Shown one piece after another: positions 39,325 through 54,702 of a DNA stretch of 64,000 nucleotides. Positions within the stretch are counted from its first letter, which is position 1, and every line of letters begins with the position of its first letter. Position numbers and translations under genes: made by a program. This stretch comes from Flagellimonas nanhaiensis (GTDB lineage: Bacteria > Bacteroidota > Bacteroidia > Flavobacteriales > Flavobacteriaceae). The stretch is taken from the NCBI RefSeq assembly GCF_003382275.1, contig NZ_QTJX01000001.1:62001-126000 (forward strand), written 5' to 3'. The notes under the pieces were generated by a model. It was given only the letters and a program-made list of their open reading frames with translations. It was not told the DNA's origin and searched no databases.

Positions 39325-39692
39325 ACTAATTTTACTAAAATTTTAAGAGAACCCCCCGTAAATGCGATAACTGCAAAATGATTAGCAATGATTATCAACT
39401 CATCAATTTGAGTGCTCTGGAATTATTCTGTTTGCAATTTTCATGCATTGGAAAAAAATATTCGGTTTAAAATATCAGCACTATTGAATTGTTTCTCCGG
39501 GAGTCGTATGGCGTAATATGATGGAGGTTTGTGGAATTAATCCAAAAGAAAATCTCGCTAAATGATGTTTTCGGATTTATACCTTAATTATATATACTAC
39601 TTTTTTGGTTGTTGTTTTATGGAAGAGAAGATTTTGAATTCATGCGGGGCATAGATTTTTTTTTCGATTAAAATAAATTTAATCTTCAAGGA
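39325..39692. other. AT-rich divergent intergenic region between the Sus cluster and rpsL
   Basis: No gene is supported here. It is AT-rich, with short inverted repeats such as ACTCA/TGAGT around TCAATT near 39400 and TGATTAGCAATGATTATCA near 39380, which could be regulator sites for the Sus-type genes. The rpsL promoter follows it. Confidence 0.4.
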
Positions 39693-39693
39693 T

Positions 39694-39741
39694 TTGAATT
39701 ATTCCTAAATATCACTACATTTGCAGCCCTCAAAAAGAGGG
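39694..39741 (+). promoter_or_regulatory. Promoter of the ribosomal superoperon with a 5' hairpin
   Basis: TTG (39694-39696), 19 nt, TACATTTG (39716-39723) is an exact match to the Bacteroidota sigma-A promoter with ideal spacing. Transcription would begin near 39728-39731, so the hairpin CCCTC-AAAAA-GAGGG (39727-39741) would sit at the very 5' end of the mRNA and could stabilise it or affect initiation. Confidence 0.75.
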
Positions 39742-39766
39742 TTATTTAGTTTTTAAAGGAAATTTA

Positions 39767-42783: not shown

Positions 42784-43089
42784 ATGAGTCAAAAAATTAG
42801 AATAAAATTGAAATCTTACGATCACAATTTGGTGGACAAATCTGCTGAAAAGATCGTGAAAACGGTAAAAACTACCGGTGCTGTGGTTACTGGACCAATT
42901 CCATTGCCAACGCACAAAAAAATATTTACGGTTTTGCGTTCACCTCACGTGAACAAGAAATCAAGGGAGCAGTTCCAGTTGAGTTCTTACAAGAGACTTT
43001 TGGATATTTATAGCTCCTCATCAAAAACCATTGATGCCCTTATGAAGTTGGAACTTCCAAGTGGTGTTGAGGTTGAGATAAAAGTGTAA
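42784..43089 (+). CDS. rpsJ: 30S ribosomal protein S10
   Basis: Protein of 101 residues, part of the 30S head. [20 protein letters not shown] and [21 protein letters not shown] are typical. It follows fusA by 10 nt and is separated from rplC by an unusually long structured gap, so it belongs transcriptionally to the rpsL-fusA block. Confidence 0.99.
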
Positions 43090-43093
43090 GTAT

Positions 43094-43215
43094 GTTCCAT
43101 CCTTTAGGATGGAGGACATGTCTCGAACGATGGTTCGGGAAAAACGGTGAAAGAAAAAATCTGGGTCAGAGCAGAAAATTTTCTTGACCCAATTTTTTTG
43201 CCAGAAAATTGGCAA
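43094..43215 (+). promoter_or_regulatory. Structured leader with terminator-like attenuator before rplC
   Basis: Four hairpins lie in series: TCCATCC/GGATGGA (43096-43113), TCTCGAAC/GTTCGGGA (43121-43140), TGGGTCA/TGACCCA (43162-43191) followed at once by seven T (43193-43199), and TTGCCA/TGGCAA (43198-43215), whose first arm overlaps that T-run. The third has intrinsic-terminator form. This fits an attenuator controlling everything from rplC onward. Which protein or signal acts on it is inference. Confidence 0.6.
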
Positions 43216-43252
43216 GCAATAAAAAGAGTAAACAATTAATAATTAATTAAAT

Positions 43253-43870
43253 ATGTCTGGGTTAATAGGTAGAAAAATCGGTATGACCAGCATCTTTGAC
43301 GAGAATGGAAAAAATGTTCCATGTACCGTTCTTGAAGCTGGACCATGCGTGGTTACCCAAGTCAGAACCGAAGAGGTGGACGGGTACAGTGCCCTTCAAC
43401 TAGGTTTCGATGACAAGGCAGAAAAGCGTGCAAACAAGGCCGAAGCCGGTCATGTTAAAAAAGCAGGCGCTTCTCCAAAGAAGAAAGTCGTTGAATTCCG
43501 TGATTTTGAAGGTGAATACAAATTGGGAGACACTGTTGGTGTTGATCTATTTGTAGAAGGAGAATTTGTTGATGTTATTGGAACATCAAAAGGAAAAGGC
43601 TTTCAAGGTGTTGTTAAAAGACACGGTTTTGGAGGTGTTGGACAAGCGACCCACGGTCAGCACAACAGATTAAGGGCTCCCGGGTCCATTGGTGCTGCAT
43701 CATATCCTGCAAGAGTTTTCAAAGGAATGAAAATGGCAGGAAGAATGGGTGGTGAAAGAGTAACAGTTCAAAACTTGAGAGTGTTGAAAGTGGTACCTGA
43801 GAAGAACCTTATTGTAGTTAAGGGCTGCGTTCCAGGTCACAAAAATGCTTACGTAACAATTGAGAAGTAA
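43253..43870 (+). CDS. rplC: 50S ribosomal protein L3
   Basis: Early-assembly 50S protein of 205 residues reaching toward the peptidyl-transferase centre. [15 protein letters not shown] and [21 protein letters not shown] are diagnostic. It is the first gene after the attenuator-like leader, and its stop overlaps the rplD start by one base (TAATG). Confidence 0.99.
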
Positions 43871-51395: not shown

Positions 51396-51575
51396 ATGTC
51401 AAAGATTAAGGTAAAACAGGTAAAAAGCGCTATCAAGAGACCACAGGATCAAAAAAGAACCTTGGAAGCACTTGGATTGCGTAAAATAGGACACGTTGTT
51501 GAGCATGATACAACACCTAGTATCCTTGGAATGATAAATAAGGTAAAACACTTGGTTTCCACCGAGGAAGCTTAA
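51396..51575 (+). CDS. rpmD: 50S ribosomal protein L30
   Basis: Short protein of 59 residues. MSKIKVKQVKSAIKRPQDQ, RTLEALGLRKIGHVVEH and the following NKVKHLV segment match L30. It lies 12 nt after rpsE and 15 nt before rplO. Confidence 0.97.
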   Translation: MSKIKVKQVKSAIKRPQDQKRTLEALGLRKIGHVVEHDTTPSILGMINKVKHLVSTEEA

Positions 51576-54114: not shown

Positions 54115-54126
54115 TAATTAATTAAG

Positions 54127-54214
54127 TAGTCATTAGTATTTAGACGTTAGAAGAATCTGTTTGAAATGTAAAAGTCTAGGATTCCAATAACTAAGAGCTA
54201 ACAACTAGAAACTA
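54127..54214. repeat. Heptad-phased TAGnnnn inverted-repeat element
   Basis: The left arm (54127-54157) runs TAGTCAT TAGTATT TAGACGT TAGAAGA, and the right arm (54180-54214), read on the minus strand, runs TAGTTTC TAGTTGT TAGCTCT TAGTTAT TGGAATC. The arms form an imperfect palindrome with TAG every 7 nt around a short AT-rich centre. It interrupts an otherwise tightly packed operon. It looks like a dispersed non-coding repeat unit rather than a gene. Confidence 0.6.
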
Positions 54215-54219
54215 AAAAT

Positions 54220-54629: not shown

Positions 54630-54702
54630 GGCCCATTAGGGTCTTCACGGAAAGTGCAGTTAGATTATCGAAGGATAAGCCTTAATTCATGATCGCACTT
54701 TC
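54630..54702 (+). promoter_or_regulatory. Structured leader before rpsD, candidate S4 autoregulatory site
   Basis: An 8-bp outer stem GAAAGTGC (54650-54657) / GCACTTTC (54695-54702) encloses a TTATC-GAAG-GATAA hairpin (54665-54678), with a CCC-ATTA-GGG hairpin just before (54632-54641). AAGG/CCTT inside allows an alternative fold. It ends 14 nt before the rpsD ATG. In other bacteria S4 represses its operon through a leader; the role here is inferred. Confidence 0.5.

Follow-up and report, generated by a model that had tools for sequence, protein, structure and literature searches.

The window analysed here, a 64,000-nt stretch of the Flagellimonas nanhaiensis contig NZ_QTJX01000001.1, carries the ribosomal-protein genes from rpsL to rpoA. 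Within this cluster, rpsJ ends with its stop codon at 43089 and rplC starts at 43253, leaving a gap of 163 nt (43090-43252). Most of the other gaps between rpsL and rpoA are 21 nt or shorter in the ORF lists. Two apparent gaps are filled by genes, one by rpmD at 51396-51575 and another by a short ORF before rpsM that is read as rpmJ; wider gaps remain between rpsM and rpsK (105 nt) and between rpsK and rpsD (103 nt, with the known S4 leader inside). Once rpmD and the presumed rpmJ are placed, the rpsJ-rplC gap is the longest of the rpsL-rpoA region, and the ORF lists thus bear out the remark of a first-pass annotation that a 163-nt gap stands here amid mostly short ones. The gap region folds to −44.2 kcal/mol versus −28.4 ± 3.6 kcal/mol for shuffled sequences (z = −4.4, 0/200). 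The same annotation described four hairpins, including an intrinsic terminator with a run of seven T and a further hairpin overlapping that run. All four are present at 43091-43215, and the last of them (H4) indeed shares the final two T of the run. They are not of equal standing: family-wide conservation applies to P1, its flanks and the terminator, whereas H1 varies freely by eye and H4 is mainly a genus-level feature. The features of the locus are as follows.

39716..39723, plus strand: TACATTTG, a TAnnTTTG match 43 nt before rpsL, read from sequence
42784..43089, plus strand: rpsJ (uS10), ORF of 101 aa upstream of the element, the tblastn query that anchors the gaps in relatives
43090..43252, plus strand: rpsJ-rplC gap, 163 nt, from the ORF lists and the fold z of −4.4
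43091..43120, plus strand: H1 hairpin directly after rpsJ, from the MFE fold; its sequence and presence vary in relatives (by eye)
43116..43147, plus strand: conserved core ACAUG-P1-AAAACGG, putative ligand site, from alignments A1 and A2
43121..43140, plus strand: P1, 8-bp stem 43121-43128/43133-43140 with loop GAUG, from anchored covariation
43148..43161, plus strand: A-rich spacer with the P2 5' strand, from spacer-loop complementarity
43151..43157, plus strand: P2 5' strand AAGAAAA, pairing with 43179-43185, from complementarity and folding
43162..43191, plus strand: terminator hairpin, 7-bp stem 43162-43168/43185-43191, from covariation
43179..43185, plus strand: P2 3' strand UUUUCUU, lying in the terminator loop and reaching into the 3' arm by one base
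43193..43199, plus strand: T7 run, predicted transcript 3' end, from sequence; preceded by an A after the stem
about 43198..43215, plus strand: H4, hairpin UUGCCA/UGGCAA that overlaps the last two T of the run and is characteristic of the window's genus
43253..43870, plus strand: rplC (uL3), ORF of 205 aa, first gene of the putatively controlled cluster
54663..54694, plus strand: S4-Flavobacteria leader RF03141, in the rpsK-rpsD gap of the same cluster (48.4 bits versus a gathering score of 35.2)

Related loci were fetched through rplC, 80 in one set, in which an Allomuricauda genome at 97% is the nearest, and 30 in another that includes the window's own (n = 110). In 4 of the 110 loci rpsJ does not lie beside rplC, and the 106 readable gaps comprise 75 with the element, 18 long ones without it and 13 short ones. 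The 75 include the window and one identical pair (L002 and L086), and 31 of them are counted as the window's genus (L082-L111 and L002). The layout of the element is ACAUG, P1 (8 stem positions and a loop of 4-6 nt), AAAACGG, an A-rich spacer, the terminator hairpin and a T-rich tail. Its distribution was followed with two covariance models, R1 of the whole element and R2 of the core only. The window's genome contains one strong R1 match (E = 8.9e-15), the next standing at E = 0.75. Among 199 Flavobacteriaceae genomes, one per genus, R1 matches 165 at E <= 0.01, and these consist of 160 strong (E < 1e-11) and five weak cases (1.7e-4 to 3.4e-3); 16 of the 20 genomes with multiple matches were re-searched, and every extra match scored at most 34.4 bits. 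Across the order, 14 of 119 genomes match R1, nine strongly and all in the same family, the other five reaching at most 36.9 bits. In the phylum, 14 of 296 genomes match, 13 of them strongly and within the family and one outside it at 38.9 bits. The weak model matches, including this outside-family one, are treated as chance. R2 gave a similar picture in 196 genomes of the order, with 13 matches in the family at 40.9 bits or more and eight others at 31.1 bits or less. The best R2 match outside the family (31 bits, L321), likewise treated as chance, falls inside an open reading frame which by its likeness we take to encode uracil phosphoribosyltransferase. Within the window's genus, 31 of 36 genomes (window included) score at least 39.9 bits with R2, and the other five are also without an rplC match.

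The element keeps to one position. Context was checked for 47 strong matches, and each of them has rpsJ on one side and rplC on the other; all 223 elements extracted by pattern from 279 loci are upstream of rplC; none of 20 weak-match loci (L114, L150-L156, L168-L179) has an rpsJ or rplC match. For other families of the order, 18 of 19 gap regions were readable, and none has the element in the gap; these gaps measure 2-110 nt, with one of 288 nt, and a loose pattern match in one such locus (L198) falls outside its 29-nt gap. The element is found in 0 of 14 Flavobacterium loci of the 80-locus set, and no genome of the genus g147, which we guess to be Flavobacterium, matches R1, with 17 such genomes among the phylum set. 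As a separate observation, 20 of the 47 strong-match loci contain a core-pattern match with one or two mismatches some 1.5 kb downstream (for example L121 and L134, near 3020, in element orientation). These matches fall in presumed rplW (uL23) codons (..NVRPDRRTRYTKTG) and are probably chance products of conserved codons; the window's own locus (L113) has no such downstream match.

The most telling part of the element is the core, ACAUG-[8-bp hairpin]-AAAACGG, which is absent from the first-pass annotation. The core pattern fits 149 of 150 loci found with the covariance model, the exception being L286 with ACUUGUC. Letter conservation, as counted in the extracted elements, is partly imposed by the extraction pattern itself. 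When 56 distinct hairpins were aligned through their flanks, without use of structure, P1 showed 33 double-change cells; neither its paired fraction nor its double changes were reached by any of 2000 shuffles, which ignore relatedness, and the number of pair types was reached by one of 2000. This covariation is lost on sliding the partner strand. The middle positions of P1 hold standard pairs or else, for the most part, G-A and A-G combinations. This suggests that many genera have a tandem sheared G-A motif there, with ordinary pairing instead in some members of the window's genus. From the 72 distinct elements, 59 were aligned with MAFFT, omitting L029 and 12 elements from the window's genus; in this alignment P1 and the terminator together have 101 double-change cells versus 28.1 in shuffles (0/500), with changes on both sides in 14 of 18 pairs. 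RNAalifold recovers the P1 and terminator stems from no preset structure. A smaller alignment of 26, restricted to the core, gives the same picture; 15/500 shuffles reach its count of pairs with changes on both sides. Covariation among relatives, whose absence the first-pass annotation had set against its own proposal, is therefore found in both main stems. Two other ideas about the core were rejected. A leader peptide starting from the near-invariant ATG at 43118 has TGA or TAA as its third codon in many relatives, and there is no conserved reading frame after this ATG. In some members of the genus a GCACGC that precedes the core could pair with the P1 loop, but by eye this fails in others. 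The base of H1 in the window can pair with the conserved ACAUG.

The terminator also covaries: 8 of its 10 aligned pairs have changed on both sides, and 92.5% of the cells are paired. A terminator-like hairpin occurs in 75/75 core-bearing gaps by our own rule, of which the T-rich tail is a part and which chose a doubtful stem in a few. This terminator is missing from the output of a simple consensus scan, presumably owing to that scan's loop limit of 3-8. Over the region the scan found no excess of terminators (11 versus 13.6 in shuffles), and it is the comparison with relatives that decides the question. Under a loose rule, a hairpin resembling H4 follows the T-run in 31/31 elements of the window's genus and in 4/44 others. 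The H4 stems change yet stay paired (GCC/GGC, GUC/GAC).

Between core and terminator, the spacer is complementary to the U-rich strand directly before the terminator 3' arm. This alternative pairing, P2, which the first-pass annotation also lacks, takes the form AAGAAAA/UUUUCUU in the window and AAAAUAC/GUAUUUU, AAACAAA/UUUGUUU or CAAAAAUA/UAUUUUUG elsewhere; the position of the C or G differs by lineage, and the partner shifts with it. In a first test on 66 distinct elements, with arms misplaced for L003 and L029 in that run, the own spacer-loop pairing was better than all permutations (0/1000), and the same was true for the 42 elements outside the window's genus. Within the genus there is no such signal, permutations being as good in 707 of 1000 cases by energy and 999 by helix score. 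A larger set of 209 distinct elements, to which 100 more loci of other family genera and loci from the model searches contributed, gave 0/5000. Contrasts between nearest relatives are weak, with 8 better, 7 worse and 20 ties in the smaller set, and 25 better, 19 worse and 60 ties in the set of 209 with no distance limit. At a minimum rplC distance of 0.15 they favor P2, with 48 better, 13 worse and 38 ties, but for pairs that share branches and are not strictly independent.

The folding of P2 depends on how much of the RNA has been made. In transcripts cut at the P2 3' end, its median probability is 0.91 and exceeds 0.5 in 67 of 70 elements (L003 and L029 left out). The full-length fold prefers the terminator in 64/70, with a median of 0.99 for the terminator core, and P2 in 6/70 (L007, L037, L044, L058, L065, L069). 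For the window (L082), P2 has a probability of 0.90 in the cut transcript and of 0.0 in the full element. Nascent folds with P2 above 0.5 number 201/209 with the own spacer versus 88/209 with a spacer of another type, 114/209 with any swapped spacer and 37/209 with shuffled spacer letters. Because swapped or shuffled spacers pair less often than the own spacer, these models indicate that P2 is more than composition, to which the A-rich and U-rich letters contribute. The P2 3' strand stops 1-5 nt short of the five-pair core in the terminator 3' arm and in many cases overlaps the inner stem. The linker joining the P2 5' strand to the terminator 5' core measures 0-7 nt, and in 5/70 elements the P2 5' strand abuts directly on the terminator 5' arm. 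From this overlap and geometry we infer that P2 and the terminator are mutually exclusive. Their coexistence as one pseudoknot was considered and rejected, as by this geometry the linkers would be too short to bridge both stems. A pairing whose two strands change together from lineage to lineage, in competition with the terminator, points to the anatomy of a sensor, an antiterminator and a terminator.

Promoter matches indicate to which gene the element belongs. TAnnTTTG is the promoter element consensus used here. In 6 of the 75 element gaps (L003, L029, L037, L044, L065, L069), rpsJ is followed by a terminator-like hairpin, a TAnnTTTG match, the element and rplC, in this order. As the element lies behind the promoter match in 6/6 of these split gaps, it belongs to the rplC leader and not to the 3' end of rpsJ. 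The other 69 gaps have no TAnnTTTG match between rpsJ and the element, which therefore seems to lie inside a transcription unit. A TAnnTTTG match is also present in 14 of the 18 long gaps without the element (within L039-L064), with its end 48-81 nt upstream of rplC. F. hibernum has supplied an rplC promoter that is described as a tool in use (PMC6847099). Given these mostly promoter-bearing gaps and the F. hibernum promoter, Flavobacterium appears to have swapped attenuation for a separate rplC promoter.

The first-pass annotation had proposed an attenuator-like leader that parts rpsL-rpsG-fusA-rpsJ from rplC onward, and this idea is strengthened by the covariation, by the fixed place of the element throughout the family and by the element's retention beside rplC in split operons. 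Overall, the element is a real conserved RNA, not in Rfam 15, and most likely a transcription attenuator of S10-spc-alpha. In the proposed mechanism, the core would be transcribed first, then the P2 5' strand and the terminator 5' arm, next the P2 3' strand and, last, the terminator 3' arm and the U-run. The nascent RNA would first fold P1 and P2, with P2 serving as the antiterminator, a weak hairpin that delays the terminator. If P2 holds while the 3' arm and the U-run are made, polymerase would read through; if P2 is lost, the terminator would form and transcription would stop before rplC. As the core directly adjoins the spacer, a protein on P1 and AAAACGG could hide the P2 5' strand and cause termination, such that an excess of free ribosomal protein would feed back negatively on the cluster. 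The terminator wins the full-length fold in most elements, and readthrough would therefore be kinetic or assisted. We are highly confident in reading the element as an attenuator. Autogenous negative control by the element, argued by analogy, is probable. The complete proposal, a cis-acting transcription attenuator, probably autogenous, that sets the passage of polymerase from rpsJ into the S10-spc-alpha genes, is on balance favored, if slightly less firmly.

Control of S10-spc-alpha, the largest ribosomal-protein cluster, is textbook knowledge in E. coli. There, uL4 is described as stopping transcription of the S10-operon leader at a Rho-independent site, alongside a control of translation (PMC10931766). 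The Flavobacteriaceae element concerns the same cluster (rplC, rplD, rplW, rplB and onward) and likewise has predicted termination in a leader, but E. coli places its control upstream of rpsJ, in the 5' UTR of the S10 operon, and the element follows rpsJ; no relation in sequence or in Rfam to the E. coli S10 leader is seen. The nearest worked-out case known to us is B. subtilis rplJL, in which L10(L12)4 is reported to hold an anti-antiterminator and thereby to promote termination (PMC4538822). As described there, that system resembles the element in having a protein-binding structure and an antiterminator made before an intrinsic terminator in a ribosomal-protein operon (PMC4538822). It differs in genes and sequence, and the element is usually without a promoter match of its own. 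Moreover, the rplJL sensor is reported to share 8 nt with the antiterminator and to mimic 23S rRNA (PMC4538822), whereas the core here only adjoins the P2 strand.

Because of these B. subtilis rplJL and E. coli uL4 precedents, negative feedback by uL4, whose gene is the second after the element, is the first guess. As the ligand, uL4 is tentative, a guess by precedent only; uL3, uL23 or uL2 are possible ligands too, and the data do not single out uL4. The core was compared in two parts and without gaps with E. coli 16S, 23S and 5S rRNA, which gave nothing above 30 shuffles, and the same scan against a stretch of a Hymenobacter plasmid, itself unannotated but with rRNA genes recognised by sequence match, also gave nothing above 30 shuffles; neither the window's genome nor G005 yielded a 23S rRNA. 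Mimicry of rRNA by the core is thus not supported, as far as linear likeness to E. coli or Hymenobacter rRNA goes. It is conceivable, if rather doubtful, that the element represents a new RNA-binding mode, in which a ribosomal protein of the cluster, possibly one that is not known to autoregulate, such as uL3 or uL23, would read a core that does not copy its rRNA site and, through a single antiterminator/terminator switch within the operon, control nearly all of S10-spc-alpha apart from the str genes in most Flavobacteriaceae genera.

The same anatomy could also work with the opposite sign, with a bound factor, for example a Nus-type complex or a positively acting ribosomal protein, stabilising P1 and P2 and so promoting readthrough. 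A protein on the core, which adjoins P2, could equally clamp P2, and with the terminator as the default in 64/70 full-length folds, an activator would have the larger range. Nevertheless, feedback by ribosomal proteins is negative in both of the cited cases as described (PMC4538822; PMC10931766), and casual observation noticed no conserved boxA-like sequence, making this alternative unlikely. An intergenic terminator alone would give an expression step, and a hairpin of this kind in every core-bearing gap would be expected of a constitutive partial terminator that, sensing nothing, keeps the genes from rplC onward at a fixed lower dose than those for EF-G and uS7/uS12/uS10. This explanation is quite improbable, since it leaves the near-invariant ACAUG and AAAACGG flanks, the covariation of P1 and the spacer-loop matching unexplained. 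Conserved single-stranded ACAUG and AAAACGG beside a terminator would, in addition, fit a small RNA from the 3' end of the rpsJ transcript that acts in trans, with the core as the seed and the terminator as the end. A released terminated RNA is, however, expected in any attenuator model too, and the location of the element on the rplC side, behind the promoter match, in 6/6 split gaps and the lack of a strong second copy in the window's genome make such a small RNA very unlikely. Chance hairpins or an ordinary transcription-unit boundary, in keeping with a simple promoter/terminator scan of the region that finds no more sites than in shuffles, can hardly account for the fold z of −4.4, the family-wide conservation and the covariation.

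Among known RNAs, the attenuator proposed here has no counterpart in Rfam 15, in which, at the curated cut-off, the window matches only RF03141, elsewhere in the window. The loci of 20/20 relatives are without any match at the cut-off, and more permissive searching, applied to the gap in the window and to L016, gave only matches far below it. The relocation of the E. coli S10 leader, suggested by the first-pass annotation, is accordingly disfavored, and an independent RNA seems likelier because there is no Rfam match at the cut-off and the scan showed no likeness of the core to E. coli rRNA. The S4-Flavobacteria r-leader (RF03141; Eckert and Weinberg 2020, PMC7247131) is similar in being lineage-restricted and in belonging to the same cluster in the same bacteria. 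It is a 33-position model of different sequence that lies before rpsD, in contrast to the rplC element, which has a terminator and precedes rplC. For Flavobacteria, that 2020 r-leader survey lists leaders of S4, S15 and S16, and it also speaks of L19 leaders there (PMC7247131). The sole motif before rplC in its Table 1 is archaeal (PMC7247131): the L4-Archaeoglobi candidate, also predicted before rplC-rplD-rplW-rplB. This candidate is rated borderline by its authors (PMC7247131) and is set apart from the element here by the lack of any Rfam match at the cut-off. The main text of the attenuator survey of Naville and Gautheret names neither rplC nor this bacterial group. No description of the element or of the control of this cluster in Bacteroidota was found in a literature search that covered subscription papers thinly, and literature titles yielded no usable transcript-end study for this bacterial group.

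The significance of the element lies in its being small, with ready-made switch logic, in most of the sampled Flavobacteriaceae genera, and in the natural contrast offered by Flavobacterium, which lacks it and mostly has an rplC promoter match. By virtue of this spread, size, logic and contrast, autoregulation by ribosomal proteins becomes directly testable in the phylum. The element also poses a fresh problem of RNA-protein recognition and merits a covariance model in Rfam.

Elsewhere in the cluster, the 105-nt rpsM-rpsK gap (54115-54219) has no unusual structure (z = −0.6) and no Rfam match at the cut-off, and the 103-nt rpsK-rpsD gap that houses RF03141 folds better than shuffles (z = −3.0, 1/200). 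At the upstream end, TACATTTG is a possible promoter, read from its letters, whose transcript would reach the element. It is followed in the rpsL leader by a GC-rich hairpin at 39725-39743, and the region 39716-39743 could be a str-operon leader; the surrounding 39630-39766 folds with z = −1.4 versus shuffles.
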